A stretch of 32,035 nucleotides of DNA from Desulfotignum sp. (lineage in GTDB: Bacteria; Desulfobacterota; Desulfobacteria; Desulfobacterales; Desulfobacteraceae). The stretch lies in the NCBI GenBank assembly GCA_011390635.1, contig JAABSA010000041.1, positions 1-32,035 on the forward strand, given 5' to 3'. The notes under the pieces were generated by a model. It worked only from the letters and a program-made list of their open reading frames with translations, had not been told where the DNA came from and ran no database searches. Shown piece by piece: positions 1 through 21,281 of this stretch. The position numbers were made by a program, and so were the translations under genes. Position 1 is the first letter of the stretch, and the number at the start of each line of letters is the position of its first letter.

Positions 1-293
1 GGCCGGGAAATGTCCGGGAGCTGGAAAATATCCTGGAGCGTGCCGTCATCATCTCGTCTGGCCCGAAACTGCGCATGATGGATGATTTTAACAGGCCTTT
101 GGCCTATTTAGGCAAAGCCCCTAAAACGATGGGAACAAAAACACTGGAACAAGTGGTGCACGACTATATTGTCCAGGTTCTGGAACAGACCAACTGGAAA
201 GTCAGCGGGGAAAACAGTGCGACCCAGGTTCTCGGGCTCAACCGCAGCACCCTGCGGGCCCGGATGCGAAAACTTGATATTGTAAAACCCTGA
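1..293 (+). CDS. Sigma-54-dependent transcriptional activator, C-terminal fragment (5' part outside window)
   Basis: The frame is open from the left edge (first full codon at base 3) to TGA at 291-293, so only the last ~97 residues are present. The visible start reads PGNVRELENILERAVI, the conserved end of the sigma-54-interacting AAA+ domain. The final third, with ATQVLGLNRSTLRARMRKL, is a Fis-type helix-turn-helix typical of bacterial enhancer-binding proteins. Such proteins bind palindromic sites 100-200 bp upstream of -24/-12 promoters and use ATP hydrolysis to open the sigma-54 holoenzyme complex. The receiver or sensor domain lies outside the window, so its input signal is unknown. Its stop codon is followed two bases later by the first of a family of 14-bp palindromes that recur before two other operons, making it the natural candidate for their activator. 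The family assignment is firm; the link to those sites is inference. Confidence 0.93.
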   Translation, partial: PGNVRELENILERAVIISSGPKLRMMDDFNRPLAYLGKAPKTMGTKTLEQVVHDYIVQVLEQTNWKVSGENSATQVLGLNRSTLRARMRKLDIVKP

Positions 294-295
294 AC

Positions 296-326
296 GGTCA
301 CATGTGGCCTTTGGTTATATGTGACC
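296..326. promoter_or_regulatory. Tandem 14-bp palindromes, putative enhancer site UAS-1
   Basis: GGTCACATGTGGCC (296-309) and GGTTATATGTGACC (313-326) are two near-palindromes 17 bp apart. The outer half-sites are perfect and the inner ones slightly degenerate. The same motif occurs at 13045-13058 and 19197-19210. The centre of the pair lies about 131 bp upstream of the -12 element at 441-442, a normal distance for an enhancer-binding protein. The binding protein is inferred, not shown. Confidence 0.72.
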
Positions 327-427
327 ATTCGCCTTGATTTTTTTCGCCTTCTTCATTTCTCTTTGTAAAGACGGGTTCCTGCGGCAGATCAAGCAAATGG
401 ACAGGACACGAAAGCAAAGTCAAGCCA

Positions 428-443
428 TGGCATGAAGCTTGCT
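428..443 (+). promoter_or_regulatory. Sigma-54 (-24/-12) promoter P1
   Basis: TGGCATGAAGCTTGCT has GG at 429-430, exactly ten bases, then GC at 441-442, matching the -24/-12 consensus TGGCAC-N5-TTGCW in all but one constrained position. The identical 16-mer is found at 13158-13173. Transcription would start near 454, giving a ~94-nt leader before the ATG at 548. No convincing IHF site was seen between it and UAS-1. Confidence 0.82.
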
Positions 444-547
444 GTTAATACATTATGAAGTCATTACCGGCAGGGCCGGAAAAAAGTTCAGGATCGAATT
501 TCCGGAACCATTCAAACCGCCAGGCATAGATGAAAAAGGTGAGCGTT

Positions 548-2360: not shown

Positions 2361-2414
2361 CAATCCTTAGTTTCAAAAGCCGGAATCTTTGATGTTTCTC
2401 AAGGCACCGGAAGC

Positions 2415-2438
2415 AGACCCAAGGGGAATTCCGGGTCT
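2415..2438 (+). other. Short hairpin in the 5' leader of the GT4 fusion gene
   Basis: AGACCC (2415-2420) and GGGTCT (2433-2438) can pair around a loop that contains GGAATTCC. There is no T-run after it, so it is not a classic terminator. It may influence mRNA processing or translation between the radical SAM and glycosyltransferase genes, or it may be meaningless. Confidence 0.3.
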
Positions 2439-2458
2439 AATAAAACAAAGAGGCGCCT

Positions 2459-4780
2459 ATGACAATGAAACCCAAACATGATGAAGATATCACATCCATA
2501 GCCGTCATCGGCAATTATCTGCCCCGGCAATGCGGCATTGCCACCTTTACCAGAGATCTGGTGGAAGGATTGTCTGCAATATCTCCGGATATGGATTGCT
2601 GGACGGTTGCAATGAATGACACCTTAAAAGGATATCCCTACCCTGAAAAAGTCCGCTTTGAAATCAACCAGAACATACTGGCCGATTACGGCATTGCATC
2701 CCAGTTTTTAAATTTCACCGGGGCCGATATTGTCTGCCTCCAGCATGAATTCGGTATTTTCGGCGGGTCTGCCGGCAGCCATCTGCTCAAGCTGCTGGGT
2801 GACCTTCACATGCCTGTGGTGACGACCCTGCATACGGTTTTAAAAGACCCTGCCCCGGAGTACCGGGATATCATGTGCAGATTAAGTGATCTGTCGGACA
2901 AACTCGTGGTCATGAGCCATAAGGCCGAAGATTTTTTAGAAGATATCTATGGTGTCCCCCGTGAGAAAATAGCATTTATCCATCACGGAATACCGGACAT
3001 GCCCTTTATCGATTCCAGTTTTCACAAGGACAAATTTGCGGTGGAAGGCAAAAAGGTATTGCTCACTTTTGGCCTTCTGTCCCCGAACAAAGGAATTGAA
3101 ACCGCTTTGCAGGCCCTTCCGGCAGTCTTAGAAAAACATCCGGATGTGGTCTATATCATTCTTGGCCGCACCCATCCCCATGTCTTGAAATCTCAAGGGG
3201 AGGCCTACCGGATCATGCTCCAGCAGCTGGCTCACCAACTGGGGATCAACCGGCATGTCATTTTCCAAAACAGTTTTGTGGCCTTGCGGGAACTGGGTGA
3301 ATTTCTCGGCATTGCCGATATCTATATTTCCCCATATCCTGAAGAGGCCCAGATTACTTCCGGGACCCTGGCCTATGCCATGGGAACCGGCAAGGCCATC
3401 ATTTCAACCCCCTATTGGTATGCTGTTGAAATGCTGGCTGAAGGCCGGGGGAAAATCGTCCCCTTTAAAAACCCTAATGCCCTTGCAGAACAGATCAATG
3501 CCCTTCTGGACAATGACGGCCAACGCCACGCCATGCGCAAAAAAGCCTATACCTTTACGCGTGAGGCAGTGTGGAAGGAGGTATCGAAGCAGTATCTGGA
3601 GATTTTCAAGGAGGTCCGTCAAAACCGCATCCGCCATCCGCGGCCCAGGTGTTCCTATATTGAAGACATTGAGGCCATAACCCATTTCGATCTGCCCGAA
3701 ATCAAACTGGATCATCTCAAGGCCCTGACCGATGATACCGGCATCCTCCAGCATGCCAACCATACCATCCCGGACAGGGCCTATGGATACTGCACCGATG
3801 ATAATGCAAGGGCCCTGCTGGTGACTGTCCTGGGGCAAAGATACCTGCCGGCCAACGGATTCGGGCTGGATGCCCTGGCCGGTCATTATCTCGGGTTTCT
3901 GTTAAACGCGTTTGATGCAAAAAACGGCCGGTTCCGCAATTTTATGGACTATTCACGGCAGTGGGTGGAAGAAACCGGGTCGGAAGATTCCCATGGCCGG
4001 GCGCTGTGGTGCCTGGGAAAGGCTGTGGCATATCTGGAGAATCCCAGCCACCTGGCCGTGAGCACTGTTTTGTTCAAAAGGGCGCTGGGGATTGCGGAAT
4101 ATTTTTTTGCCCCCCGGGCTGTTGCGTTCACCCTCATCGGTCTGGATGCCTACCTGGGCAAATTTTGCGGGGACAGCGATGCCAGAAGGATCAGGGATAT
4201 TCTGGCGGACCGGCTGTTCATCCAGTTTAAAGATCATGGCACAAAAGACTGGCCCTGGCTTGAAGGTGCCTTAAATTATGCCAATGCCAAACTGCCCCAG
4301 GCCCTGATCCTGTCCGGGAACAGGATGCAGCGCACCGCTATGGTGGATATGGGTCTGAACTCCCTGAAATGGCTTTTGGCCATCCAGACGGATGATCATC
4401 ATTTTGCACCTGTCGGCAGCAACGGCTGGTATCAAAAACAAGGAAAAAAAGCCCGGTTCGATCAGCAGCCCATTGAAGCCAAAGCCATGGTTGAGGCTTG
4501 TGTGGAAGCCTATAATATCACCCGGGACCGGCAGTGGTTTGAAAACAGCGTCATGAGTTTTAACTGGTTTCTCGGGCATAATGATCTGAATATGCCCCTG
4601 TATGACCCCAAAACCGGCGGTTGCCGGGACGGGCTCATGGTGGACGGCATCAACCAGAACCAGGGGGCCGAGTCTACGCTGGCATGGCTGTTGTCCTTGC
4701 TGACCCTGCAGAAGCTCTATGCCGATGAAATATGCAACCAACCGCCATTCCGGTCACCAGAAAAAGCGGTTAGCGGTTAG
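2459..4780 (+). CDS. GT4 glycosyltransferase fused to a six-hairpin glycosidase-like domain
   Basis: A 773-residue two-part cytoplasmic protein. Residues ~12-395 are a GT-B glycosyltransferase of the GT4 type: NYLPRQCGIATFTRDLVEG at the start, then LQHEFGIFGG, HTVL, HHGIPD, GLLSPNKGIETA and a nucleotide-sugar-side segment around ISPYPEEAQITSGTLAYAMG. Residues ~400-765 form a helix-rich domain with YGYCTDDNARAL, DWPWLEGALNYANAKLPQAL and GGCRDGLMVDGINQNQGAES, resembling (alpha/alpha)6 barrels seen in glycosidases and phosphorylases. The gene is preceded by AAAGAGG at 2446-2452. Neighbouring GT4 and GH130-like genes suggest it elongates, and may also trim, a mannoside or related glycan. No signal peptide or membrane segment is seen. 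Donor and acceptor are unknown, and the second domain may be structural rather than catalytic. Confidence 0.85.
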   Translation: MTMKPKHDEDITSIAVIGNYLPRQCGIATFTRDLVEGLSAISPDMDCWTVAMNDTLKGYPYPEKVRFEINQNILADYGIASQFLNFTGADIVCLQHEFGIFGGSAGSHLLKLLGDLHMPVVTTLHTVLKDPAPEYRDIMCRLSDLSDKLVVMSHKAEDFLEDIYGVPREKIAFIHHGIPDMPFIDSSFHKDKFAVEGKKVLLTFGLLSPNKGIETALQALPAVLEKHPDVVYIILGRTHPHVLKSQGEAYRIMLQQLAHQLGINRHVIFQNSFVALRELGEFLGIADIYISPYPEEAQITSGTLAYAMGTGKAIISTPYWYAVEMLAEGRGKIVPFKNPNALAEQINALLDNDGQRHAMRKKAYTFTREAVWKEVSKQYLEIFKEVRQNRIRHPRPRCSYIEDIEAITHFDLPEIKLDHLKALTDDTGILQHANHTIPDRAYGYCTDDNARALLVTVLGQRYLPANGFGLDALAGHYLGFLLNAFDAKNGRFRNFMDYSRQWVEETGSEDSHGRALWCLGKAVAYLENPSHLAVSTVLFKRALGIAEYFFAPRAVAFTLIGLDAYLGKFCGDSDARRIRDILADRLFIQFKDHGTKDWPWLEGALNYANAKLPQALILSGNRMQRTAMVDMGLNSLKWLLAIQTDDHHFAPVGSNGWYQKQGKKARFDQQPIEAKAMVEACVEAYNITRDRQWFENSVMSFNWFLGHNDLNMPLYDPKTGGCRDGLMVDGINQNQGAESTLAWLLSLLTLQKLYADEICNQPPFRSPEKAVSG

Positions 4781-4792
4781 CTTAAAACTTAC

Positions 4793-4810
4793 ATATAAAA
4801 CGTTTTATAT
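4793..4810. repeat. Perfect 18-bp palindrome before the GT4-cupin gene
   Basis: ATATAAAACGTTTTATAT is a perfect inverted repeat ending one base before the Shine-Dalgarno AAAGGAAAG (4811-4819). It could be an operator or an RNA hairpin that hides the ribosome site. It is very A/T rich, so chance is a real alternative. Immediately upstream, the 7-bp unit GCGGTTA is repeated in tandem across the stop of the preceding gene. Confidence 0.35.
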
Positions 4811-4819
4811 AAAGGAAAG

Positions 4820-6175
4820 ATGATGCGTATTGCCATGCTGTCACCCATTGCCTGGCGGACTCCGCCGGTGCACTACGGCCCCTGGGAAAAAGTGGCCTCC
4901 CTTTTAACGGAAGGACTGGTTGCGCGGGGCCACGATGTCACCTTGTTCGCCACAAAGGATTCATTGACCCATGCCACCCTGCATGCCGTTTGTGCGAAAG
5001 GATATGAAGAAGATCCCACCATCATTCCAAAGGTGTCTGAATGCCTTCATATTTCCGAACTGTTTGATCATGCCGAAGCATTCGACATCATTCACAACCA
5101 TTTTGATTTTCTGCCCTTAACCTATACGGGACTTACCCACACCCCGGTGGTCACAACCATCCACGGATTTTCATCACCAAAAATTCTTCCGGTGTTCAGA
5201 AAATACAATAAAAAAACCTTTTATGTGTCCATCAGCGAGGCTGACCGAAACCCGGATCTCGACTATATCAGGACCATTCATCACGGCATTGACCTGACAG
5301 AATTTGATTTTCAGCCCAATCCTGAAGAGTTTCTTCTGTTCCTGGGCCGGTTCCACCCGGATAAGGGTGCCAAAGAGGCCATCGAGATTGCCCGGGCTTC
5401 GGGCAGAAAACTGGTCATGGCCGGCATCATACAGGATGAGGCCTATTTTAATGCACATATCAGGCATGCTATCGATGACGACCAGGTAACCTATCTGGGA
5501 AGCATCGGGCCGGAAAAAAGAAATGAGGTTCTGGGCAAGGCATTTGCTTTGCTGCATCCTATCAATTTTGACGAACCCTTCGGCCTTAGTGTCATTGAAT
5601 CCATGGCCTGCGGCACCCCGGTGATTGCCGTCAACCGGGGCAGCATGCCCGAACTGATCCAGGACAAGAGGAACGGGTTTCTGGTTTCCGGTGTGCAGGA
5701 AGCGGTCCTTGCCGTTGGGTGCATCAGCGGCATTGACCGGACTTTTTGCCGGAAAACCGTTCTGGACCATTTCACCGTTGATCACATGGTTGAAAATTAT
5801 ATCCAGGTTTATGAAGAAATCCTTGAAACGACAACGCGTGAAGATCATCGGCCCTGGGGATTCTACCAGATTCTTTCCGATGAGAATGCTTTTAAGAATA
5901 AAAAAATAGTGGTTTATCCGGGAAAGCGCTTGAGCCTCCAGCGGCATCAGCACAGGGATGAACACTGGTTTGTGGTCAGCGGACAGGGCATATGGACCCT
6001 GGACGGTGTGGAAAAAAAACTTGTGGCAGGACAATCGGTGGATATCCCGCGCAAATCCGTTCACAGGATTCAAAATAACGGCATGGAAAATCTGGTATTT
6101 ACGGAAGTTCAGACCGGTGATTATTTTGGTGAAGATGATATTGAACGCCTGGAAGATGATTTTGGCAGAAATTAA
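4820..6175 (+). CDS. GT4 glycosyltransferase with C-terminal mannose-6-phosphate-isomerase-type cupin
   Basis: A 451-residue fusion. Residues 1-~335 are a GT4 enzyme: MRIAMLSPIAWRTPPVHYG N-terminus, HNHFDFLPL, TTIHGF, HHGID, LGRFHPDKG and the donor-binding EPFGLSVIESMACGTPVIA with its E-x7-E pair. Residues ~343-440 are a cupin closely resembling the C-terminal domain of type II phosphomannose isomerase/ManC: RPWGFYQIL, YPGKRLSLQRHQHRDEHW, VSGQGIWTLDG and DIPRKSVHRIQN, with the His/Glu metal-ligand pattern intact. Such cupins convert fructose-6-P to mannose-6-P in ManC-type enzymes, so the fusion hints at coupling of mannose supply to glycosyl transfer. Two consecutive ATGs exist (4820, 4823) behind AAAGGAAAG. 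It is followed 19 bp later by a GH130-like gene. Whether the cupin is an active isomerase or a sugar-binding module is open. Confidence 0.85.
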   Translation: MMRIAMLSPIAWRTPPVHYGPWEKVASLLTEGLVARGHDVTLFATKDSLTHATLHAVCAKGYEEDPTIIPKVSECLHISELFDHAEAFDIIHNHFDFLPLTYTGLTHTPVVTTIHGFSSPKILPVFRKYNKKTFYVSISEADRNPDLDYIRTIHHGIDLTEFDFQPNPEEFLLFLGRFHPDKGAKEAIEIARASGRKLVMAGIIQDEAYFNAHIRHAIDDDQVTYLGSIGPEKRNEVLGKAFALLHPINFDEPFGLSVIESMACGTPVIAVNRGSMPELIQDKRNGFLVSGVQEAVLAVGCISGIDRTFCRKTVLDHFTVDHMVENYIQVYEEILETTTREDHRPWGFYQILSDENAFKNKKIVVYPGKRLSLQRHQHRDEHWFVVSGQGIWTLDGVEKKLVAGQSVDIPRKSVHRIQNNGMENLVFTEVQTGDYFGEDDIERLEDDFGRN

Positions 6176-6194
6176 CACACAGAAAGGGTTTGTC

Positions 6195-7136
6195 ATGAAT
6201 ACCCGAAAAGATATCATCACGCGCTGTGCAGACAATCCCATCCTGACAAAAGAGGATGTCCCCTATCCGGTCGCAACGGTTCATAATGCCGGTGTGGTCA
6301 AATATCAAGGTCAGTATATCATGCTGTTCAGATCCCATCTTTATAACGGGCGCTCCATCATCGGACGGGCAGACAGCAAGGATGGATTTTCATTTACCGT
6401 CAGCCCCGAACCCTTTTTAATCCCGGCTGCAGATGGTGTTTTTGCCGAGTATGAATCATTCGGCGTAGAAGACCTGCGGATCAATCCGGTGGGAGATGAA
6501 TTTTTGCTCACCTACAGTGCCTATTCATGTCACGGGGTCTGTATTGCCCTGGCCAGGACCCTGGATTTTAAAACGGTTGAACGCATTGCCCTGATCACCC
6601 AGGCGGATTTGCGCAACGTGGTCATTTTTCCCGAAAAAATAAAGGGCCGGTATGTGCGTTTTGACCGCCCCCATTCGGAAATATCCCCCTGGTCTATCTG
6701 GATTTCCTATTCTCCCGATCTGATTCACTGGGGGAATTCCCGGGTGATCATGAAACCATTGGCCTATCACTGGGATGAAATGAAAATCGGGCCCGGCGCG
6801 CCACCCATAAAAACGGAAAAAGGCTGGCTGAATATCTATCACGGGGTTTTCAAAACCATGTCCGGGACCGTATACCGGCTCGGCGCTGCCCTGCATGCAC
6901 TGGATGATCCGGCAATCCTTATCGGGGTTTGTGATGAGTGGATTCTTCAGCCGGAAGACCCCTGGGAAAGGGTCGGCTACGTTCCCAATGTGGTGTTTGC
7001 CTGCGGTGCGGTTCCGGAAGAAGACGGCACGGTAAAAATTTACTGGGGGGGTGCGGATACGGTCATGTGCGCGGGTACGGCTAAGATTGACGACCTGGTA
7101 TCGCTCTGCATCTCTTCTCCCCGGCCGGCCATGTGA
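6195..7136 (+). CDS. GH130-like beta-mannoside phosphorylase / glycosidase (first of pair)
   Basis: A 313-residue five-bladed-propeller-type protein of the GH130 (PH1107-related) family, whose characterised members phosphorolyse or hydrolyse beta-mannosides. Visible signatures are VATVHNAGVVKYQGQYIMLF near the start, FGVEDLRI with the family acidic pair E92-D93, KIGPGAPPIKTEKGWLNIYH around residue 200, and GYVPNVVFACG near the C-terminus. The start at 6195 follows AGAAAGGG at 6181-6188; the frame is open further upstream but overlaps the previous gene and is not family-like. No signal peptide is present, so action is cytoplasmic, consistent with a phosphorylase saving the bond energy as mannose-1-phosphate. 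Direction (synthesis or breakdown) and linkage cannot be told from sequence. Confidence 0.85.
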   Translation: MNTRKDIITRCADNPILTKEDVPYPVATVHNAGVVKYQGQYIMLFRSHLYNGRSIIGRADSKDGFSFTVSPEPFLIPAADGVFAEYESFGVEDLRINPVGDEFLLTYSAYSCHGVCIALARTLDFKTVERIALITQADLRNVVIFPEKIKGRYVRFDRPHSEISPWSIWISYSPDLIHWGNSRVIMKPLAYHWDEMKIGPGAPPIKTEKGWLNIYHGVFKTMSGTVYRLGAALHALDDPAILIGVCDEWILQPEDPWERVGYVPNVVFACGAVPEEDGTVKIYWGGADTVMCAGTAKIDDLVSLCISSPRPAM

Positions 7137-7204
7137 CAATTGTCACAAAGGGCAATGGGTATAATCCCTGCGCTTAAATTGCAGTTACATAAGGAAGCCC
7201 GCAC

Positions 7205-8683
7205 ATGAAGGCAAAACATCATGTTCAATTGAAAGTGACAAGAAAACCCAACAAGATCACCGGGGATACATCCCGGGTCATTACACGGCCTCATATTCCG
7301 GATGACCCGCACCGCATATCTAAAATTATCGGCCGGATCATGGCTCTTCCCGATGCCTTTGCCAAAGACCTGATGGCAAAAATCCTCAAGAACTTTTCAG
7401 CCCGGCACGAAGACATCCATCATATTTTTGAACGGCACCTGAACCGGGTAAAGGATTTTCTGCCAAAGGGCGTATTGCTGAATGAAGTGCAAAAGGGACT
7501 GGTCGGCGCTTATTTTACAAAAGAATATGCCATAGAGTCTGCCGCACTTTTTAACCCTTCCATTGTGCTTCATCCGGATCAAAGCCACCTTGAAAAAGGC
7601 AGTCTCCGGTTTGTCATGAGTCTGAGGGCCACCGGTGAAGGCCATGTATCTTCCATTGTATTCCGAAGCGGTATTCTGAACCGGCACAACACCTTTTGTT
7701 TTGATCCGGTCAGTGAATTTGTGGAAACCCCGGATCTAAAAAAGGATCCTGTCTACGACCGATCCGTTTTCCAACGAAAGCTGGATGAAATGAAGGCCAA
7801 CAGCGAAATCAGTACCTATATTCTCGGCCGCCTGCCCGAAGTTTTCACCTTTACGGAACTCATCGAACAAATCCGCATCCTCAACGCAAGCCCGCAATTT
7901 TCTCCGGCCAAACAGAAAACAGCCTTCGGTTTTATCACCTGGCTTGCGGATTCCAATTATGAAGTGGATTTTCATGCCGATCACAGAATCTCGGAACGGG
8001 TCATTTTCCCGGTTTCAAGAAATGAGAGCAGGGGGATTGAAGATGCCCGGTTTGTGCAATTTTTCGATGATAACCAGGAGAGCACCTATTACGCAACCTA
8101 TACAGCTTATAACGGGGTGACCATTTTACCGCAGTTGATCGAAACAAAAGATTTCATTCATTTTAAAATCCGGACACTCAACGGCGATGCAGCTCAAAAT
8201 AAGGGCATGGCCCTTTTCCCCCGGAAAATAAAGGGCCAATACGCCATGCTGTCACGCCAGGGAGGCGAAAACAACCACATCATGTTTTCAGATAACCTGC
8301 ATTTCTGGCAGACCTCCCGGGTGATCCAGGAACCTGAACAGCCCTGGGAATTTGTCCAGATCGGCAATTGCGGGTCACCTCTGGAGACTGATAAAGGCTG
8401 GATTGTACTGACCCATGGAGTGGGGCCCATGCGCCAATACTGCATCGGCGCCATCCTGCTGGATCTGGAAAACCCGGCACGGATCATTGCCCGTCTGGAT
8501 GAACCGCTTCTGACCCCCAATGAGAAAGAACGGGAAGGCTATGTCCCCAATGTTGTTTATTCCTGCGGTTCCATCATTCACCAAAAGGAACTGGTCATTC
8601 CATACGCCATGTCTGATATTAATTCCGGTATTGCAACCGTTAAAATTAAAAAATTGATACAGTGTATGCATGCAGTGCCTTAA
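7205..8683 (+). CDS. GH130-like protein with long N-terminal extension (second of pair)
   Basis: A 492-residue protein. The first ~180 residues are a mainly helical extension followed by the start of the propeller. The rest carries GH130 landmarks: SRGIEDARFVQF with the acidic pair E279-D280, a YYATYTAYNG blade, GNCGSPLETDKGWIVLTHG, and GYVPNVVYSCG. It is clearly a paralogue of the preceding 313-residue protein, sharing the last two motifs, but far longer. Long GH130 members are known among beta-1,2-mannooligosaccharide phosphorylases, so the pair may divide long- and short-chain substrates; that division is inference. It begins after AAGGA at 7192-7196. The 68-bp gap before it contains a 12-bp palindrome (7134-7145) that includes the preceding stop codon. 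Confidence 0.82.
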   Translation: MKAKHHVQLKVTRKPNKITGDTSRVITRPHIPDDPHRISKIIGRIMALPDAFAKDLMAKILKNFSARHEDIHHIFERHLNRVKDFLPKGVLLNEVQKGLVGAYFTKEYAIESAALFNPSIVLHPDQSHLEKGSLRFVMSLRATGEGHVSSIVFRSGILNRHNTFCFDPVSEFVETPDLKKDPVYDRSVFQRKLDEMKANSEISTYILGRLPEVFTFTELIEQIRILNASPQFSPAKQKTAFGFITWLADSNYEVDFHADHRISERVIFPVSRNESRGIEDARFVQFFDDNQESTYYATYTAYNGVTILPQLIETKDFIHFKIRTLNGDAAQNKGMALFPRKIKGQYAMLSRQGGENNHIMFSDNLHFWQTSRVIQEPEQPWEFVQIGNCGSPLETDKGWIVLTHGVGPMRQYCIGAILLDLENPARIIARLDEPLLTPNEKEREGYVPNVVYSCGSIIHQKELVIPYAMSDINSGIATVKIKKLIQCMHAVP

Positions 8684-8709
8684 CCTGTTGAGTTGAAAGG
8701 GAATCAACC

Positions 8710-12892: not shown

Positions 12893-12920
12893 TCCGGATG
12901 GCTGGATGTTCAGTCCGCAA

Positions 12921-12960
12921 AAATAACCACCGGCTTAAAGCCGGTGGTTATTTGGTTTTA
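12921..12960 (+). terminator. Rho-independent terminator
   Basis: A perfect inverted repeat with 16-base arms (12921-12936 and 12938-12953), GC-rich in the core (ACCACCGGC / GCCGGTGGT), ends in TTTGGTTTT. It closes the long glycan operon. The rest of the gene-free stretch 12893-13248 holds only the UAS-2 and P2 elements described separately. Confidence 0.9.
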
Positions 12961-13027: not shown

Positions 13028-13058
13028 TGAATATAATGACCAAAGGTCACATATGACC
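13028..13058. promoter_or_regulatory. Palindrome plus half-site, putative enhancer site UAS-2
   Basis: GGTCACATATGACC at 13045-13058 matches the UAS-1 and UAS-3 palindromes. A right half-site TGACC at 13037-13041 lies exactly 17 bp from the TGACC at 13054-13058, the same spacing as in UAS-1. The centre of the pair is ~129 bp upstream of the P2 -12 element. GACCG-N5-CGGTC followed by GG and six Ts (13055-13077) overlaps its right end and could act as a weak extra terminator. Confidence 0.7.
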
Positions 13059-13157: not shown

Positions 13158-13173
13158 TGGCATGAAGCTTGCT
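13158..13173 (+). promoter_or_regulatory. Sigma-54 (-24/-12) promoter P2
   Basis: TGGCATGAAGCTTGCT is identical to P1. GG at 13159-13160 and GC at 13171-13172 are ten bases apart, as required. The expected start is near 13184, giving a ~65-nt leader before the ATG at 13249. Confidence 0.85.
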
Positions 13174-13248
13174 CTTAAATTTTTCTGATCAATGAAGAAA
13201 TCGTTTATGACCTTCTTTGTGTCAGGCGGTTAAAAAATAAGGATAAAT

Positions 13249-15936
13249 ATGGGACAATATCATTTAAAAAGCATGTTCAACCCCCGCCACATCGCAGTGG
13301 TGGGGGCCAGTGAAAAAAAAGGAACCATCGGCCATGCGCTGATGAAAAATCTGATCGACGGCGGATTTGCAGGAATGATTCTGCCGGTGAATCCCAAATA
13401 TAAAACCATACAGGGTCATGACTGCGTAAAATCGGTCCGTGATCTGATGCAGGGGCTGGATCTTGCCATTATTGCCACCCCCATTCATACCGCCATTGAT
13501 ATTGTGACGGACTGTGTCGAAAAAAAGGTACGCAGTGCGATTATTATTTCGGCAGGCGGCAGGGAAGTGGGGGACCAGGGCCGTGAGATCGAAGATCAGA
13601 TCCAAAAGATTGCTTATGACGGAGGGCTTCGTATCCTGGGGCCCAATTGCATGGGGCTCATCCGGCCGGGCGTGAATCTCAATGCAGGGTTTGCCTCGGA
13701 CATGCCCCTGGCCGGAAACCTGGCCTTTGTTTCCCAGAGCGGTGCCATATGCGGCGCCATTCTTGATATGGCTGCCAGGGAACACATGGGGTTCAGCCAT
13801 TTTGTCAGTATCGGATCCATGCTGGACATCGATTTCGGCGACATGATCGATTATCTTGGAAATGATTCTTCGGCAAAAAGTATTTTATTGTATATTGAAA
13901 ATCTGACAAATGTCCGCAAATTCATGAGTGCGGCCCGTTCCGTATCACGGGTGAAACCCATTATCGTGCTGAAATCCGGCAGGAGCCCTGCCGGTGAAAA
14001 AGCGGCGGCGTCTCACACCGGCGCCATGGCAGGAGAAGATGCCGTGTATGATGCAGCTTTTAAGCGGGCCGGTATCGTGCGGGTGGACTCCATTGAAGAA
14101 CTTTTTGACTGCGCAGAGCTGATGGCCAAGCAGCCGCGCCCCCGGGGTCCCAGGCTGGCAATCCTCACCAATGGCGGCGGACCCGGTGTAATGGCGGCGG
14201 ATACCCTTGCCGGATATGGAAAAGCACCCGAACCGCTTGACCCTGAAACAATCCAGGCGCTCGATGCATTCCTGCCGCCTTTCTGGAGCCGGGGGAACCC
14301 CATCGATATCCTTGGGGATGCAACGGCAGACCGTTTTGGCAAGGCCCTTTCGGCCTGCTTTAATTCAAAAAACCTGGATGGCGTCCTGGTCATTTTTGCC
14401 CCCCAGGCCATTGCCGATCCTTTGCCGGTGGCAAAGATGCTGGCGTCTGCCGTCAGCGGGCATGAATACCCGGTCTTTGCCTGCTGGATGGGCGGGAAAA
14501 GCATTGAAACGGCGGTGGCGGTTTTGAATGAAGCCGGTATTCCGACCTATGATACACCGGAACGGGCGGTTCGTTCCTTTTTATATATGGTGCAATATGC
14601 CGCCAATCTTGAAACACTCCTGGAAGTCCCCCCGAAATTGACCCGGAATATGGAATTTGATCAAAAAAAAGCCCGCAGCCTGATCGACAGGGTCCAGGAG
14701 GGCTTTATGCCGGAACCGGATGCTGTGGAAATGCTCACGGCCTATGGCCTGCCTGTGGTTAGGGCGAAAACGGCCGTAACAGAAGCACAAGCCTTGCGTA
14801 TGGCCCGGAAAATCGGATTTCCGCTGGTCATGAAGCTTTTGTCATCCGATATCACCCACAAAACCGATGCCGGGGGCATCTGTCTGGATTTGCGGAGTAA
14901 TGAAGATGTCAGCCGGGCCTATCAGCAAATTATGTCATCCGTCTCACGGTATAAGCCGGATGCAAAAATTGAGGGCGTGACCCTCCAGCCCTATTTTTCA
15001 AACCCTGATTTTGAAATTTTAATGGGGGCCAAGCATGATAAAGGGTTTGGTCCGGTGATCCTGTTCGGGATGGGCGGAATTTATACGGAAGTATTAAAAG
15101 ACAGGTCTCTGGGGCTTCCACCCATGAACCGCCTTCTGGCCTTGCGGCTCATGCAGGAAACCAGGGTTTACACCCTGTTAAAGGGATATCGAAACCGGCC
15201 TGCCGCCGATATGGAGAAGCTCGAAGAAATGATTATCCGGCTTTCTCAGCTTTTGATCGACTTCCCGGAAATTGCCGAGCTGGACATGAACCCCGTCCTG
15301 ATCAAAAATGGGAGTCCCGTGGCAGTGGATGCCCGGATACGGATTTCCCCGACACATGTCTCTTCTTCCCTTCATCTGGTCATCAGCCCCTATCCTGAAG
15401 AGGATGAATCCCATATGCGCAGTGCGGACGGACATAAAATTTTTATCCGGCCGGTCAAGCCCGAAGATGCCCCTTTGTTTACGGCATTATTCAAAACACT
15501 GACGCCCACAACAATTTATTATCGTTTTTTCGGGGCATTAAAGGAGTTGAACCCCGAGATGCTGGACCGGTTCACCCAGATCGATTACGACCGGGAAATT
15601 GCCCTGGTTGCCCTGGATGAAACGGCTCAAACCGACAGCATGCTTGGGGTTGCCAGAATCATCGGTGAACCCGATGGAAAGACGGGTGAATTTTCCGTCC
15701 TGGTGGGAGATGCCTGGCAAGGCAAGGGAATCGGGTCGAGCCTCCTGGAAAGATGTCTGGCCATTGCTGAGGAGCAGGGGTATAAAACCGTTCACGGTAT
15801 TGTCCTGGGGGAGAACAAAAATATGCTCGCGCTGGGGAAAAAACTGGGGTTTGAGATTGGGAAAGATCCCGACTCCAGTGACAACAACCTGGTGATTCAT
15901 TTCGGAAAACAGAACCTGAAACCAGGGGACAACTGA
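13249..15936 (+). CDS. ADP-forming acyl-CoA synthetase fused to a C-terminal GNAT acetyltransferase
   Basis: An 895-residue single-chain protein. Domains in order are CoA-binding (~5-135, VVGASEKKGTIGHALMKNL), succinyl-CoA-ligase-like (~145-460), ATP-grasp (~480-700, with VMKLLSSDITHKTDAGG and ILFGMGGIYTEVLKD) and GNAT (~725-890, with DAWQGKGIGSSLLERCL as the acetyl-CoA pyrophosphate loop). H256 in ASHTGAMAG is the histidine phosphorylated in ADP-forming acetyl-CoA synthetases, and it is intact. The same architecture is found in protein acetyltransferase Pat/PatZ, where the synthetase part is reported to be regulatory rather than catalytic. Here it could do either job: make ATP from an acyl-CoA, or acylate lysines of metabolic enzymes. 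It is the first gene of the P2 unit, with AAGGAT at 13239-13244 before the ATG. Confidence 0.9.
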   Translation: MGQYHLKSMFNPRHIAVVGASEKKGTIGHALMKNLIDGGFAGMILPVNPKYKTIQGHDCVKSVRDLMQGLDLAIIATPIHTAIDIVTDCVEKKVRSAIIISAGGREVGDQGREIEDQIQKIAYDGGLRILGPNCMGLIRPGVNLNAGFASDMPLAGNLAFVSQSGAICGAILDMAAREHMGFSHFVSIGSMLDIDFGDMIDYLGNDSSAKSILLYIENLTNVRKFMSAARSVSRVKPIIVLKSGRSPAGEKAAASHTGAMAGEDAVYDAAFKRAGIVRVDSIEELFDCAELMAKQPRPRGPRLAILTNGGGPGVMAADTLAGYGKAPEPLDPETIQALDAFLPPFWSRGNPIDILGDATADRFGKALSACFNSKNLDGVLVIFAPQAIADPLPVAKMLASAVSGHEYPVFACWMGGKSIETAVAVLNEAGIPTYDTPERAVRSFLYMVQYAANLETLLEVPPKLTRNMEFDQKKARSLIDRVQEGFMPEPDAVEMLTAYGLPVVRAKTAVTEAQALRMARKIGFPLVMKLLSSDITHKTDAGGICLDLRSNEDVSRAYQQIMSSVSRYKPDAKIEGVTLQPYFSNPDFEILMGAKHDKGFGPVILFGMGGIYTEVLKDRSLGLPPMNRLLALRLMQETRVYTLLKGYRNRPAADMEKLEEMIIRLSQLLIDFPEIAELDMNPVLIKNGSPVAVDARIRISPTHVSSSLHLVISPYPEEDESHMRSADGHKIFIRPVKPEDAPLFTALFKTLTPTTIYYRFFGALKELNPEMLDRFTQIDYDREIALVALDETAQTDSMLGVARIIGEPDGKTGEFSVLVGDAWQGKGIGSSLLERCLAIAEEQGYKTVHGIVLGENKNMLALGKKLGFEIGKDPDSSDNNLVIHFGKQNLKPGDN

Positions 15937-15952
15937 ACGAAAGGATATAACC

Positions 15953-17962
15953 ATGGAAACCCCGACAATTGAAAACCAGCTTCATCCTGACAATGCCGAA
16001 TTGATCAGACGAAATGCCCTTCTCGAAGAAACTCTGATGGAAAATGAAGTCCTGCTGGAATCTTTGAAGGGTTCTGAAAAACAATACCGCCGCCTTTTTG
16101 AATCCGCCAAGGATGGTATCCTGATTATCGATGCCGATACCGGCCAGGTGGATGATGCCAATCCATTTCTTTTGGCCCTGATCGGCTCAACTTACGAGAT
16201 GGTATACGGAAAACACCTCTGGGAACTGGGTGTGTTGAAAGATATTGCCGAGTCCAGGGAGGCGTTTAAGGCGCTGCAGAACAACCAGTATATCCGTTAT
16301 GAAAATCTGCCGCTTCTGACGATTGACGGGCGGCACATTGAAGTTGAATTTATCAGCAATGTCTATCTTGTGGACAACAAAAAGGTGATTCAGTGCAATA
16401 TCCGTGATATCACGGCCCGAAAGCATGCGGAAAGGATCATGACGGAGAACGAGTCCAAGATGCGCAGCATCCTCGACAACATTGGCATCGGCGTGGCGCT
16501 CATCAGCCCGGAGATGGTGATTCTTGAACTGAACCGGCAGATGCGCACCTGGTTTCCCGATGCCGATATCGGCCAGGATCCGCTTTGTTACCAGGCGTTC
16601 AATGACCCGCCGGGCCACGTGGCCTGCACAGGCTGTCCAGCGGTGAAAACGTTTTTGGATGGCGGACTGCATGAAATCACACGCCAGGTCATGCGGGCCG
16701 GTGTAAGGCGCGACTACCGCATTGTTTCATCTGCTGTCCGCAGCGTTTCCGGTAAGGTCACGGCCGTCATCGAAATGGTCGAGGATATCACCGAGCGGAT
16801 TTCCCTGGAAGCCCAATTCCTCCAGGCCCAGAAACTCGAATCCCTGGGACGGCTGGCAGGGGGAGTGGCCCATGACTACAACAATATGCTCGGTGTGATT
16901 CTCGGGTACGCAGAGCTGGCCCAGGGAAAGCTGAATCCATCGGATCCAGTATACGGGGATCTTAAGGAAATTCTCAAAGCCGGCAGCCGTTCCGTGGAAA
17001 TCACCCGGCAATTGCTGGGCTTTGCCCGCAAACAGACCATTGCACCCAGGGTCATCGATGTAAATGATAATGTGGCAAGAATCATTAAAATGCTGGGTCC
17101 CCTCATTGGTGAGGATATTACTCTCAACTGGCTGCCCGGAGCAAACCTGCAGCCGGTCATGATGGATCCGGCCCAACTGGATCAGATCATGGCCAACCTG
17201 TGTGTAAACGCCCGGGATGCCATCTCCGGCATCGGCAAAGTCACGGTTGAAACAGCCATGGTGACCTTTGACAAAGCCTATTGCGATGGCCACGACGGAT
17301 TTATTCCCGGTGATTTCGTCTGTTTAACCGTCGGTGATGACGGCTGCGGCATGGAAGAGGAGATTCAGAAAAATATCTTTGAACCCTTTTTCACCACCAA
17401 GGATGCGGGCCTGGGGACAGGTCTTGGTTTATCCACGGTGTACGGTATTGTCAAACAGAACCAGGGATTTATCAATGTATACAGCGAACCGGCCAACGGC
17501 ACGGTGTTCCGCATCTACCTGCACGGCCATACCAGTGAACCGTCCATCAGTTTTCAAAAACACACACATAAAGCCTTGCCAGGACACGGTGAGACCCTCC
17601 TGGTTGTGGAGGATGAGGCCACGATACGGAAATTGACAAAACACATGCTTGAAGACATTGGATACATCGTGCTGACCGCCGGTTCGGCAAAAGAAGCCCT
17701 GCAGCTTTCGAAGGTCCATGGCCATAAGATCCGCCTGGTCATCACCGACGTCATCATGCCTGAAATGAATGGACAGGAGCTGGCCGACCGATTGAAAATT
17801 CTTAACCCGGATCTGGGTATTCTGTTCATGTCCGGCTATACCTCCGACGTGATCTCCCGCGGAGGGGACCATGAGATTCACTTCATTGAAAAACCGTTTT
17901 CCGTTGCATCCCTGGCAGGAAAGGTGCATGAAGTGCTGGCAAAAAATGCAGCTGCCGTTTGA
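15953..17962 (+). CDS. PAS-PAS hybrid histidine kinase with C-terminal receiver
   Basis: A 669-residue protein with no transmembrane segment, so a cytoplasmic sensor. It has a short coiled-coil N-terminus (~10-45), PAS-1 (~45-160), PAS-2 (~165-285), HisKA with phospho-acceptor H307 in GGVAHDYNNMLG, a HATPase with NLCVNARDAI, DDGCGM and TGLGLSTVYGIV boxes, and a receiver (~545-665) with D599 in VITDVIMPEMNG. PAS-2 carries C212 and the pair C225/C228 in ACTGCPAVKTF, a pattern that could hold a metal, a disulfide or an iron-sulfur cluster. The gene starts 16 bp after the acyl-CoA synthetase, with AAAGGATA before its ATG. No separate response regulator lies beside it, so the output may be a phosphorelay to a protein elsewhere, conceivably the activator at the left edge. 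Confidence 0.92.
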   Translation: METPTIENQLHPDNAELIRRNALLEETLMENEVLLESLKGSEKQYRRLFESAKDGILIIDADTGQVDDANPFLLALIGSTYEMVYGKHLWELGVLKDIAESREAFKALQNNQYIRYENLPLLTIDGRHIEVEFISNVYLVDNKKVIQCNIRDITARKHAERIMTENESKMRSILDNIGIGVALISPEMVILELNRQMRTWFPDADIGQDPLCYQAFNDPPGHVACTGCPAVKTFLDGGLHEITRQVMRAGVRRDYRIVSSAVRSVSGKVTAVIEMVEDITERISLEAQFLQAQKLESLGRLAGGVAHDYNNMLGVILGYAELAQGKLNPSDPVYGDLKEILKAGSRSVEITRQLLGFARKQTIAPRVIDVNDNVARIIKMLGPLIGEDITLNWLPGANLQPVMMDPAQLDQIMANLCVNARDAISGIGKVTVETAMVTFDKAYCDGHDGFIPGDFVCLTVGDDGCGMEEEIQKNIFEPFFTTKDAGLGTGLGLSTVYGIVKQNQGFINVYSEPANGTVFRIYLHGHTSEPSISFQKHTHKALPGHGETLLVVEDEATIRKLTKHMLEDIGYIVLTAGSAKEALQLSKVHGHKIRLVITDVIMPEMNGQELADRLKILNPDLGILFMSGYTSDVISRGGDHEIHFIEKPFSVASLAGKVHEVLAKNAAAV

Positions 17963-18006
17963 TAGACTTTCCATGATCGTTCGTTTAGACGGGTAAAAAG
18001 GATAAT

Positions 18007-19197
18007 ATGGCCGGGATCCGTTTTGTTCCTGACAATCAAATCACACTGCTGCAAAACGGCGACACATATTTCTCGGTCATGGAAGCAGCGCTGGACAAGG
18101 CAGAACATGAGATTTATCTGATAAGCTATATTTTTAAAAATGACACCATTGGACGACGTATTGCAGAAGCGCTCAAGCGGGCAGCGCTGCGCGGTGTGAG
18201 GACCCGCGTGCTGATTGATGGTTTCGGTTCGGACAATCTGCCGAAAACCATGGTCGCAGACCTTGATGCAGCCGGTGTGATGGTGATGAAGTTCCGGCCC
18301 AAGATATCTCCCTGGACATTTCGGCGCCGGAGGCTGCGTCGATTGCACCGGAAAATTGTGATTGTCGATCAGAGCGCTGCATTCGTGGGAGGCATTAATA
18401 TTGTCGATGATTTTGATACCCCCGATCAAACCTCGCCCCGGTATGACTACACTGTACATGTAAAAGGACCGATGGTCCGAGATATCCTTGTGTCCACCCA
18501 ACGGCTGTGGTCCCGGGTGATCCGGACCCGTTTTCGTATCTGGCCCCGTTCCGGTACCCGGGGCCGTGGCCAGGACCGGCAATCGCCTTTTCCCGAATCA
18601 TGCGGCAGTATGCGGGCAGCTTTTCTGGCGCGGGATAATATCGGGCATCGACGTGATATCGAAGATGCCTATATGCAGGCGATTGAACAGGCACAAGTGG
18701 AAATCATCATAGCAAATGCCTATTTTTTTCCCGGATTAAAATTTCGTCATGCGCTTATGGAAGCGGCCGGGCGAGGTGTCCGGGTGGTTTTGCTTTTGCA
18801 GGGAAAGAAGGAATACCCGTTATTGTATTATGCCTCGAAAACCCTGTACGGCAGTTTTCTAAATGCCGGGATAGAAATTCATGAATATCACAATAGCCTC
18901 ATGCATGCCAAAGTTGCTGTGATTGATGAACAGTGGTCTACGGTGGGATCTTCGAATCTTGACCCGTTCAGTCTGCTGCTTTCACTGGAGGCGAATGTGG
19001 TGGTTGATGATAAAAATTTTGCCGGGAACTTGAAACGCAGCCTGGAGAAGTCTATTGCTGCCGGGGCACATCAGATCCAACCCAATAGCTGGAAACGCCA
19101 ACCCATTCGGCTTCGTATGGTGAATTGGCTATGCTATGGTTTGGTCCGATTCATGACAGGAATGACGGGGTATGCGCCGGGCAAAGATTCCAGATAG
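18007..19197 (+). CDS. Cardiolipin synthase-like phospholipase D family protein (ClsB type)
   Basis: A 396-residue protein with two HKD motifs: H114-x-K in RLHRKIVIVDQ followed by GGINI, and H300-x-K in LMHAKVAVIDEQWSTVGSSN. This pair is the active site of phospholipase D/cardiolipin synthases, which join two phospholipids or a phospholipid and an alcohol. There are no N-terminal membrane helices, and length and motif spacing fit the ClsB (YbhO) group rather than ClsA. AAAAAGGAT at 17995-18003 is the ribosome site; the gap after the kinase is only 44 bp, so it belongs to the P2 unit. The last base of its TAG (19197) is the first base of the UAS-3 palindrome. A general PLD-type transferase remains the alternative. 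Confidence 0.87.
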   Translation: MAGIRFVPDNQITLLQNGDTYFSVMEAALDKAEHEIYLISYIFKNDTIGRRIAEALKRAALRGVRTRVLIDGFGSDNLPKTMVADLDAAGVMVMKFRPKISPWTFRRRRLRRLHRKIVIVDQSAAFVGGINIVDDFDTPDQTSPRYDYTVHVKGPMVRDILVSTQRLWSRVIRTRFRIWPRSGTRGRGQDRQSPFPESCGSMRAAFLARDNIGHRRDIEDAYMQAIEQAQVEIIIANAYFFPGLKFRHALMEAAGRGVRVVLLLQGKKEYPLLYYASKTLYGSFLNAGIEIHEYHNSLMHAKVAVIDEQWSTVGSSNLDPFSLLLSLEANVVVDDKNFAGNLKRSLEKSIAAGAHQIQPNSWKRQPIRLRMVNWLCYGLVRFMTGMTGYAPGKDSR

Positions 19198-19228
19198 GTC
19201 ATATATGACCATTTGATCATATGCGATC
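19197..19228. promoter_or_regulatory. Tandem palindromes, putative enhancer site UAS-3
   Basis: GGTCATATATGACC (19197-19210) is a perfect 14-bp palindrome. GATCATATGCGATC (19215-19228) is a weaker second copy 18 bp away. The first copy begins on the last base of the preceding gene's stop codon. The centre of the pair is ~129 bp upstream of the candidate -12 element at 19341. Confidence 0.68.
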
Positions 19229-19327
19229 TATTTTTATGATGGTTTTCTTCTCTATCCATGATCCATTTATGTCATTATTCTCTGATAATTTAACATATTA
19301 AGACGAAAAATTACAATTTGTTATGTT

Positions 19328-19343
19328 TGGCCCGAAACTTGAG
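19328..19343 (+). promoter_or_regulatory. Candidate sigma-54 promoter P3 (imperfect -12)
   Basis: TGGCCCGAAACTTGAG has GG at 19329-19330 and the right ten-base spacing, but GA instead of GC at the -12 position (19341-19342). Alone it would be doubtful; its distance from UAS-3, matching the other two cases within a few bases, is what supports it. A leader of ~100 nt would precede the ATG at 19453. Confidence 0.55.
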
Positions 19344-19452
19344 TATGTCATGTAGCAATGAATAGATTTCCGGAAAAGCGTTCTATATTGAATGAATCTG
19401 TGTATTGCTAAAACAATATAATGTGGGGGATATTTTAAAATGGAATCTGACC

Positions 19453-20820
19453 ATGAATAAACTCAAGCAAATTTGGAGCAATCTGCGGTCAAGCTTTTGG
19501 TTTGCACCTTCGCTGATTGTTGCCGTCAGCATCGCCATTGCGGTGGCTTTGGTTGAAGCGGGTTCCATTGGAAGTGACCAATGGCTGGCCCGCTGGCCGC
19601 GCCTCTTTGGCGTCGGTGCGGAGGGCGCGCGCGGGATGTTGTCCACGATTGCCGGCTCGATGATGACCGTGGTGGGGGTCACGTTTTCGATGGTTCTGAT
19701 GACGTTGGCGCTGGCTTCGAGCCAGTACACCTCGCGCATCCTGCGGAACTTCATGCGTGACCGCGTCACGCAGGTCGTGCTCGGGATTTTCACGGGTATT
19801 TTCACCTATTGCCTGATTGTTTTACGCACCATCCGCGGTGGCGAGGAGAGCGGGTTTATTCCGAACCTGGCAGTGTCTTTCGGTGTCGTTCTGGCAATCG
19901 GCGGCATCAGCGTCCTCATTTTTTTCATTCATCACATCGCTTCTTCGATCCAGGCATCGACCATCATCGCTTCGGTTGCTGCTGAAACCATGGTGGCCGT
20001 TGACCGGCATTTTCCAGACAAGCTTGGAGACGGACAGGGTGACGGTGAGGAGGATCAATCACCGCTCCCCCTGTTGGGGTGTCGCTGGCAGGCAGTCGCA
20101 ACCAGGGGGAATGGGTATATCCAAAACGTAGATATTGCAACACTCCTGCGTTTGGCGCGGGAACACCAGACCATCGTGCGGATGGAACGAAACATCGGTG
20201 CTTTTGTGGTCCAGGATACCACGCTGGCTTCGCTCGCTTTGAAGGACCCGCCGGAAAAAAAACTCATCGCCGATCTGCAGGCGGCATACAGCATCAAGCG
20301 GTACCGCATGGTGGAACACGATTCAGCTTTCGGCATCCGACAGATCGTGGATATCGCGCTGCGTTCACTTTCCCCCAGCATCAACGACACCACGACGGCC
20401 GTGATGTGTGTGGATTATCTGACGGCAATTCTGGCGCGACTGGCGCCTCGGAAAACACCCGCCTCTTGCCGGTACGAGGAAGGGGAACTGAGGGTGATAA
20501 CCATCGGACCGACCTTTGAAGATTTGCTGGCCGAATCGTTCGATCAAATTCGAAGCAGTGCCACAGGCAATGTCGCCATCATGTTGCGGATTCTCGGGGC
20601 GATTGAAACCATCGCCGGTGTGACGGCCAGCCCGGGCCGTCGACAGGCGCTTCACGATCAAGTGAGATGGATCAGTGAACTGGCCGAACGCACCCTCGAG
20701 TCAGCGCATGACCGTGCGAGGATCGATATGCGGCTGGCGCGCGTGTGCGAAGCGCTTGAAGCCGATTCTGTTTTGTGCACAGGGAAAGAGAAACAAACGA
20801 AGGAACAAACCAAAAAGTAA
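19453..20820 (+). CDS. DUF2254 membrane protein
   Basis: A 455-residue inner-membrane protein of the DUF2254 family, function unknown. The N-terminus MNKLKQIWSNLRSSFWFAPS is typical of the family. Four hydrophobic segments follow (about 18-40, 60-90, 105-128 and 135-160), then a ~290-residue soluble domain with REHQTIVRMERNIGAFV and SLSPSINDTTTAV. The ATG at 19453 is preferred because of the family-like N-terminus; a TTG at 19405 in the same frame would add 16 residues. Neither has a strong ribosome site. It is downstream of UAS-3 and P3. The coding region looks more GC-rich by eye (many GCG, CTG, CGC codons) than the genes on either side, which may point to separate acquisition. Confidence 0.88.
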   Translation: MNKLKQIWSNLRSSFWFAPSLIVAVSIAIAVALVEAGSIGSDQWLARWPRLFGVGAEGARGMLSTIAGSMMTVVGVTFSMVLMTLALASSQYTSRILRNFMRDRVTQVVLGIFTGIFTYCLIVLRTIRGGEESGFIPNLAVSFGVVLAIGGISVLIFFIHHIASSIQASTIIASVAAETMVAVDRHFPDKLGDGQGDGEEDQSPLPLLGCRWQAVATRGNGYIQNVDIATLLRLAREHQTIVRMERNIGAFVVQDTTLASLALKDPPEKKLIADLQAAYSIKRYRMVEHDSAFGIRQIVDIALRSLSPSINDTTTAVMCVDYLTAILARLAPRKTPASCRYEEGELRVITIGPTFEDLLAESFDQIRSSATGNVAIMLRILGAIETIAGVTASPGRRQALHDQVRWISELAERTLESAHDRARIDMRLARVCEALEADSVLCTGKEKQTKEQTKK

Positions 20821-21262: not shown

Positions 21263-21281
21263 TATTTATGAGGAGCGAATC

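Follow-up and report, generated by a model that had tools for sequence, protein, structure and literature searches.

One PAS-type sigma-54 activator as the probable controller of an envelope and stress regulon in Desulfotignum and related Desulfobacterales

Three operons on one contig of Desulfotignum sp. share an enhancer and sigma-54 promoter arrangement, which raises the question of whether a single regulator controls them and what such a regulon would serve. The stretch analysed here (the window) is contig C41 from its first base to its last (C41:1-32035; 32,035 bp) in a 98-contig genome, and the source organism is probably a sulfate-reducing bacterium. A sequence-only reading had proposed that the activator whose gene ends at the left edge of the window controls all three units. 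Our results favoured, with a probability of about 0.8, the view that in Desulfobacterales and some neighbours an envelope and stress regulon is controlled by a dedicated PAS-type sigma-54 activator.

The palindrome consensus is GGTCATATATGACC, and its paired copies were found 17 or 18 bp apart, all on the plus strand of the window. Enhancer 1 (296-326) comprises the palindromes 296-309 (GGTCACATGTGGCC) and 313-326 (GGTTATATGTGACC), 17 bp apart with one mismatch each, and is followed by sigma-54 promoter 1 at 428-443 (TGGCATGAAGCTTGCT; exact GG-N10-GC). Enhancer 2 (13037-13058) consists of the half-site TGACC at 13037-13041 and the perfect palindrome 13045-13058 (GGTCACATATGACC), the half-site lying 17 bp ahead of the TGACC within that palindrome. 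Read as a full site, the element at 13037 has mismatches at 7 of 14 positions and thus counts as a half-site only; the distal enhancer-2 site in the relative G010 (L116) has four mismatches. Promoter 2 (13158-13173, also exact GG-N10-GC) has the same letters as promoter 1. Enhancer 3 (19197-19228) is formed by 19197-19210 (GGTCATATATGACC, perfect) and 19215-19228 (GATCATATGCGATC, three mismatches), 18 bp apart, with promoter 3 at 19328-19343 (TGGCCCGAAACTTGAG), where the -12 element is GA rather than GC (GG-N10-GA). The palindromes 296/313, 13045 and 19197/19215, each with a second copy or half-site 17-18 bp away, were read directly where the sequence-only reading had placed them. Its distance of 129-131 bp from the pair centre to the -24/-12 element was slightly off: the elements are there, and from the pair centre to the -12 G we measured 130, 128 and 128.5 bp for promoters 1, 2 and 3, that is, 128-130 bp. 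In all three units the two sites stand 17 or 18 bp apart and the -24 element begins 99-101 bp after the promoter-proximal site. An IHF-like site lies between enhancer 1 and promoter 1 (387-399, plus strand) and agrees with 7 of 9 consensus positions; the best match was also 7/9 at promoter 3 and 5/9 at promoter 2. Both the IHF (integration host factor) consensus and the sigma-54 matrix were taken from general knowledge.

Could such an arrangement arise by chance? The 14-mer alone gave 7 matches in the window (at most 3 mismatches) against 3.7 expected, a count reached in 9 of 100 shuffles, and 41 matches in the genome (at most 2 mismatches), where the reversed control pattern gave 62. As these counts are unremarkable in both window and genome, we rejected any significance of the bare palindrome. 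The complete geometry behaved differently, occurring three times in the window and not once in any of 100 dinucleotide shuffles. A matrix trained on 11 promoters, none of them from the genus, ranked the three promoters as the top three places of the window with 46.3 bits (296), 42.8 bits (19197) and 27.7 bits (13028), whereas the maximum over 100 shuffled windows was 20.0 bits; because its training rows had themselves been selected for resembling this consensus and geometry, the test is held out in sequence and not in form. The idea that the palindromes are chance matches or a scattered repeat, with coincidental -24/-12 elements, can draw on the lack of enrichment of the bare motif. Against it stand the fixed geometry before many different genes, absent from all 100 shuffles here and from all 380 shuffles of the loci described below, and the recovery of the promoters by the outside-genus matrix, and we regard it as extremely unlikely. 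The three shared enhancer/promoter units in the window are real.

The activator gene at positions 3-293 (plus strand) encodes the C-terminal 96 residues of a PAS/AAA+/Fis enhancer-binding protein (EBP), namely the AAA+ lid and the helix-turn-helix (Pfam AAA_lid_14 and HTH_8). The gene is incomplete because the window begins at a contig end. Full-length orthologues have about 500 aa with PAS, Sigma54_activat and HTH_8 domains; PAS_4 was matched in L060 (E 2.7e-5), L068 (9.1e-9) and L058 (5e-9). The AAA+ loop of these three orthologues reads GAFTGS or GAFTGA, with GAFTGS in the genus members. The sensor domain of the orthologues is PAS and a receiver domain is absent, while the window fragment itself holds the lid and helix-turn-helix only. 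Judged by the domain make-up of the full-length orthologues, the window activator is a one-component sigma-54 EBP. The best matches to its DNA-binding domain were metagenome-assembled genomes (MAGs) labelled Desulfobacteraceae and Desulfotignum. RpoN is coded once in the genome (one PF04552 match, E 1.5e-59), and four HU/IHF-type matches were found, one of them partial. The activator is duplicated in some relatives, in tandem in G006 (L058; G006:C7:52013 and 54044) and on two contigs of MAG S12.Bin036 (L125, L130); the break of contig C41 inside the activator gene may stem from such repeats.

We then used the DNA-binding domain alone as the query and obtained 78 loci, the best of 184 relatives found. 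Several of these records coincide with genomes that went into the model described below. The adjacency test relied on the consensus palindrome and the general-knowledge sigma-54 matrix, not on the trained model. A site pair with its promoter (the switch) occurred within about 350 bp behind the matched DNA-binding domain in 47 of the 76 testable loci, compared with 0 of 380 shuffles; the arrangement of enhancer 1 thus recurs behind orthologues of the activator, across families. Among close-orthologue loci the switch was found in 9 of 15, and in 0 of 13 loci of other EBPs (Fisher p 0.0008), a fourteenth, switch-bearing locus (L049) having been counted as a short orthologue fragment and excluded from the controls. 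In addition, the activator gene itself stands behind a switch promoter in G036 (G036:C19:7151) and in the predicted chains of L165, L191 and L198. If the activator gene is among its own targets, a self-amplifying switch would result.

A whole-element, sequence-only model was built from 38 sequences and applied to the same loci. It returned 138 rows, of which 85 full-length matches were kept by hand and 53 partial, opposite-strand or weaker ones were dropped, a few of the latter being nearly full length. The 85 promoters lie in 61 of the 78 loci. Site spacing was 17 bp in 65 and 18 bp in 20, the distance from the site end to the -24 element was 97-103 bp in 81, and the -12 element read TTGC in 39, TTGA in 39 and otherwise in 7. 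An IHF-like site recurred in 18 of the 85 at one 8-bp step, compared with at most 2 of 85 at each of the other nine steps. These features suggest a mechanism in which activator dimers would bind the two adjacent palindromes 17 or 18 bp apart, IHF would probably bend the roughly 100 bp between enhancer and promoter, and the AAA+ ring of the activator would then touch the sigma-54 polymerase at -24/-12 and open the promoter. Binding, IHF action and activation are what we infer from the protein family; the site pairs, their spacing, the promoters, the domains of the orthologues and the association with the activator gene can be read at the level of sequence.

The co-occurrence of activator and switch across genomes was also tabulated. 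The activator (best E at most 1e-20) was found in 16 genomes, all of which have model matches, compared with 7 of the 23 others (Fisher 7e-6); counted by genus, the figures were 7/7 and 4/20 (p 0.0004). We do not treat this table as main evidence, because it is partly circular: the training loci came from many of the same genomes and the cut-off was set afterwards. In a phylum-wide scan with stricter filters, which included few genomes of the order concerned, model matches appeared in 3 of 198 genomes including our own. Matches in records labelled Desulfobulbaceae, Desulfocapsaceae and Desulfohalobiaceae indicate that the switch extends beyond a single order; some few matching records are labelled as other phyla and may be misbinned. 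Records with matches include Desulfosarcina alkanivorans, Desulfogranum marinum, Desulfofustis glycolicus and Desulfatitalea alkaliphila.

The switch might be real and yet be run by another of the roughly 40 sigma-54 activators of this genome, the adjoining one being a bystander. The EBP query matched 44 stretches of the genome, nearly all through the AAA+ part, and the seven genomes with model matches and no clear orthologue would fit this explanation. However, among 76 loci selected solely through this DNA-binding domain, 47 carry the switch right behind it, none of the 13 other-EBP loci carries it, and the activator gene lies behind switch promoters in G036 and in the predicted chains of L165, L191 and L198. 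A different EBP is therefore very unlikely. The proposal of one activator for all three units holds as far as comparison of sequences can take it, with promoter 3 as its weakest part.

The sequence-only reading had suggested searching the genome and its relatives for the site pair with a -24/-12 element, and had listed three units in the candidate regulon. When the search was run, the three units were found, and their number proved too small: besides the 85 promoters in relatives' loci, the own genome holds seven. The model gave seven full-length matches there (E 2.3e-22 to 2.9e-10), the next being partial at 1.5e-3, namely C60:6746(-), C41:296, C44:22690(-), C44:22805(+), C41:19197, C41:13031 and C68:10550(-). 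The training set of the model contained five of the seven; C44:22805(+) was represented through relatives only and C68 was not included. The seven promoters come from six enhancers, since one enhancer on C44 serves two divergent promoters. Its minus-strand promoter, present in 10 of 13 genus genomes, leads to genes for two lipoproteins, one VWA-OmpA and one BON; the plus-strand promoter, with model matches in 8 of 13, leads to a 385-aa protein and a polyketide-type synthase. The C60 promoter precedes pyruvate kinase, and the C68 promoter points to a catalase gene 1.1 kb off. Behind the pyruvate kinase gene, fragments of a broken acyl-CoA synthetase gene were seen (L012:1569-1936), where G006 has an intact 899-aa homologue. 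Several candidates were set aside. Matches on C9, C24 and C90, three of eight own-genome matches to a gapped pattern, show no second site within the matched stretch and were dropped as chance; the reversed control gave one match. A pair on C60 (1482/1499; L012:1482-1512, 1317(-)) has a strong -24/-12 element at 164 bp and partial model matches, and was left out of the regulon; it stands before a PEP-CTERM protein gene, at this atypical distance. The C68 plus-strand promoter, at 66 bp, was left out as well.

Several observations weigh against a dedicated activator with an envelope and stress regulon. In G008, G009, G011 and G019 the activator gene is not followed by a site pair with promoter, and in G006 the same is true of the upstream one of its two tandem copies. 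Model matches occur in the seven genomes without a clear orthologue, although four of these are under 90% complete and G024 has fragments. The C44 plus-strand element is 8-12 bp longer, about one helical turn, in G001:C205, G006:C7 and G007:C351, and by the matrix test its -24/-12 element lies at 90-110 bp in only 5 of 9 genomes. The N-terminal part of the activator is missing from the assembly, where the best match to the orthologue N-terminus elsewhere was 50%. The stress role is read from the gene content of the targets and not from expression. Finally, G008 and G011 keep the site pair at the DUF2254 gene in a form from which the segment with promoter 3 is absent. The palindromes had been expected to be conserved in relatives if they matter: the pair, including enhancer 3, is indeed kept, while promoter 3 is absent in these two genomes.

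The last point bears on a narrower alternative, in which promoters 1 and 2 are the only functional ones in the window, transcription of the DUF2254 unit comes from the operon upstream of it, and enhancer 3 is either a relic or active at some other place. The GA at -12 and the state of G008 and G011 are in its favour, and of the three promoters that of the DUF2254 unit is the least certain. Nevertheless, promoter 3 scored 42.8 bits by the outside-genus matrix, second best in the window, and TTGA at -12 also occurs in 39 of the 85 promoters of relatives' loci. We consider this alternative rather unlikely. The DUF2254 gene itself was matched in only 4 of 13 genus genomes, once at 49%. Of the orthologues fetched, G010 alone has promoter 2 directly in front of the acyl-CoA synthetase gene; in the others the gene is part of different operons.

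The right half of the window appears to belong to the same putative regulon. Its minus-strand genes, which run from 32035 to 21979, have collinear counterparts downstream of the same plus-strand promoter in G011 (L246; 74-92% identity), and we read them, from Pfam/NCBIfam, a PDB match and this collinearity, as the 3' part of the operon headed by C44:22805(+). The ends of C44 and the window do not overlap; judged by G011, both break in the same synthase gene, so that they are probably chromosomal neighbours and the window would hold parts of four regulon operons. In order, the operon encodes the 385-aa protein, the polyketide-type synthase (28958-32035 in the window), a phosphopantetheinyl transferase (28077-28973), an ABC transporter (27112-28065 and 25982-27115), a radical SAM/SPASM protein (25041-25985), an unassigned 345-aa protein (24059-25096), a serine-palmitoyltransferase-like enzyme (22809-24065) and an SDR reductase of generic type (21979-22812). 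Of the synthase domains, NMO and KS lie on C44 and ACP, KR and PS-DH in the window, and AT was seen in G011. The serine-palmitoyltransferase-like enzyme scored 383 bits to the solved serine palmitoyltransferases 8guh and 3a2b, and 494.1 against a cut-off of 640 for the NCBIfam model. The 385-aa product of the first gene, which may resemble the ceramide synthase bCerS, has no match in Pfam, NCBIfam or PDB.

Perhaps this operon serves sphingolipid synthesis. In Pseudomonas fluorescens, a polyketide synthase and a serine-palmitoyltransferase-type enzyme make sphingolipids (PMC12134224). As in the PfSgaAB cluster of that organism, where a type I polyketide synthase adjoins the serine-palmitoyltransferase-type enzyme and the proposed pathway includes a reductase homologue, the present operon has the synthase, the transferase-like enzyme and an SDR reductase. 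It differs from that cluster in adding a phosphopantetheinyl transferase, an ABC transporter, a radical SAM enzyme and the 385-aa protein, and in sitting behind a sigma-54 enhancer (PMC12134224). Furthermore, sulfate reducers among Black Sea Desulfobacterota were inferred to make sphingolipids, which were tied to oxidative stress; gene regulation is absent from the accessible portion of that account, unlike the sigma-54 switch found here (PMC11334938).

What the regulon would serve must be judged from its targets. In the own genome these are outer-membrane VWA-OmpA and BON lipoproteins, a cardiolipin-synthase-like enzyme, sphingolipid-type synthesis, storage or surface glycan, a protein-modifying acetyltransferase and kinases. 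The target lists for the relatives are plain tallies of predicted genes, made with a crude gene caller plus a chain rule. The commonest target family was the ABM-domain gene, present in 26 of the predicted chains behind the 85 promoters. BON-type proteins formed two clusters over 10 loci, with one member of each confirmed by Pfam. Rarer targets, in one or a few loci each and often not as the first gene, were CheB-CheR fusions, histidine kinases, HflK/HflC-type Band 7 proteins, FtsH, Lon, GroEL, Hsp20, KaiC, KaiB, a trehalose-synthase-type glycosyltransferase, a PBP1A-type protein, a diguanylate cyclase and the activator gene itself. When the PAS of the activator was compared with one CheB-CheR PAS, no likeness was seen. 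The chaperones, proteases and genes for oxidant or osmotic protection are spread over relatives and were not shown together in one genome.

This content suggests an envelope and stress programme. Alternatively, the regulon could be an envelope, surface-glycan and lipid programme for attachment, biofilm or storage and have little to do with general stress. The own-genome targets are mostly envelope, lipid or glycan genes, and sigma-54 has been described as a controller of the bacterial exterior (PMC3162934). On the other hand, GroEL, Lon, FtsH, Hsp20, HflK/C and KaiC/B lie in relatives' predicted operons behind the same promoter, and a catalase gene lies beyond the C68 promoter in the own genome, albeit at a distance of 1.1 kb. 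A pure envelope programme seems to us improbable, if a serious contender, and we keep to the combined envelope and stress programme. A bolder extension of it, which we advance tentatively and at somewhat less than even odds, is that Desulfobacterales and neighbours run their general stress response by this PAS-type sigma-54 activator instead of a sigma-S, sigma-B or EcfG-type factor. Under that extension the regulon would lie, in some members, largely in one island of 40-100 kb with inducible sphingolipid-type synthesis, and in some relatives it would extend to core chaperones and proteases, to a sigma-70 family factor (L148) and to the gene of the activator. G011 has counterparts of many own-genome targets gathered, together with the activator, in about 100 kb, with one model match 0.5 Mb off, and G033 has five model matches inside 42 kb. 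With the RpoS model TIGR02394, none of the 7 genomes tried, our own included, scored at the cut-off, compared with 1 of 14 controls; sigma-B and EcfG were not sought. A gene for a sigma-70 family factor (L148:10414-11460) is the first behind an activator-adjacent promoter in a Desulfobacteraceae MAG, which hints at a sigma cascade. The G011 regulon island also contains a gas-vesicle cluster (GvpF/L, GvpG, gas-vesicle protein and GvpK; L247, G011:C1:4712001-4724500).

One-component activators such as NifA, NorR and FhlA work through enhancer sites, IHF and a -24/-12 promoter. The present activator resembles them in its AAA+ motor and Fis-type helix-turn-helix and differs from them in motif and targets; among the matches listed, none of the 25 curated NCBIfam subfamilies, including NifA, NorR and FhlA, reached its cut-off. 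The PEP-CTERM box response regulator serves a dispersed set of envelope genes. It is also a sigma-54 activator (TIGR02915; 315.7 bits here against a cut-off of 502.6, hence not reached) and, unlike our activator, a response regulator by name. The closest known system is found in Desulfovibrio vulgaris, where the two-component sigma-54 regulator DVU3305 has been linked to general stress. It belongs with DVU3303-3304, and the operon of the regulator and those next to it respond to heat, high pH and stationary phase (PMC3333781); DVU3305 has also been placed under general stress (PMC4641369). Both systems use a sigma-54 activator, and that of DVU3305 includes a Lon-domain protein (PMC3333781). 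However, DVU3305 is a two-component response regulator while the activator here has PAS and no receiver, and the targets of DVU3305 are UspA-type and membrane proteins, unlike those found here; the two were likened without comparison of binding motifs.

The four exact palindrome forms were not found in the literature searched, which covered few subscription papers. Among the matches listed, the regulon was not described in literature on sigma-54 regulons, stress, Desulfobacteraceae or Desulfotignum, on DUF2254 with BON or cardiolipin synthase, or on sphingolipids with Deltaproteobacteria, Desulfobacterota or sigma-54. The mechanism is of an ordinary, known kind; the regulon is, as far as we searched, new. 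Most of the roughly 40 sigma-54 activators in this genome are presumably without known targets, and for this one there are now a motif, a rule for its promoters and a list of targets that can be tested in cultured relatives. It could account for the way these bacteria coordinate the defence of envelope, lipids and protein quality with no RpoS-type factor. It would also offer a way into the regulation of sphingolipid-type synthesis in Desulfobacterota, a group in which sphingolipids have been tied to oxidative stress (PMC11334938).

The genes of the three units are all on the plus strand. Operon 1 begins with an ABM-domain protein (530-907; Pfam PF03992) and a B12-binding radical SAM protein (DUF4070; 885-2360, with a start at 849 TTG or 885 ATG). 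Its glycan part (2459-12671, from open reading frames and Pfam) encodes GT4 (2459-4780), GT4-cupin (4820-6175), two GH130 (5958-7136 and 7205-8683), SIS (8710-9726), PIG-L (9659-10351), a last GT4 (10348-11490) and a GH100-like protein (11490-12671); a match to beta-1,2-mannobiose phosphorylase stayed under its cut-off. After operon 1, at 12920-12960, an inverted repeat followed by a T-rich stretch looks terminator-like by eye. The second unit comprises an ADP-forming-type acyl-CoA synthetase fused to a GNAT acetyltransferase (13249-15936), a PAS histidine kinase with a receiver domain (15953-17962) and a cardiolipin-synthase-like PLD protein (18007-19197), for which Pfam gives PLDc_2 and PLDc and the sequence-only reading gave the name cardiolipin synthase. 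The third is the DUF2254 membrane protein (19453-20820; Pfam PF10011), whose start MNKLKQ is as in its orthologues. Between it and the minus-strand operon, at 21252-21958, lie a small gene and a PIN-domain gene, likely a toxin-antitoxin pair, with homologues also in the G011 island.

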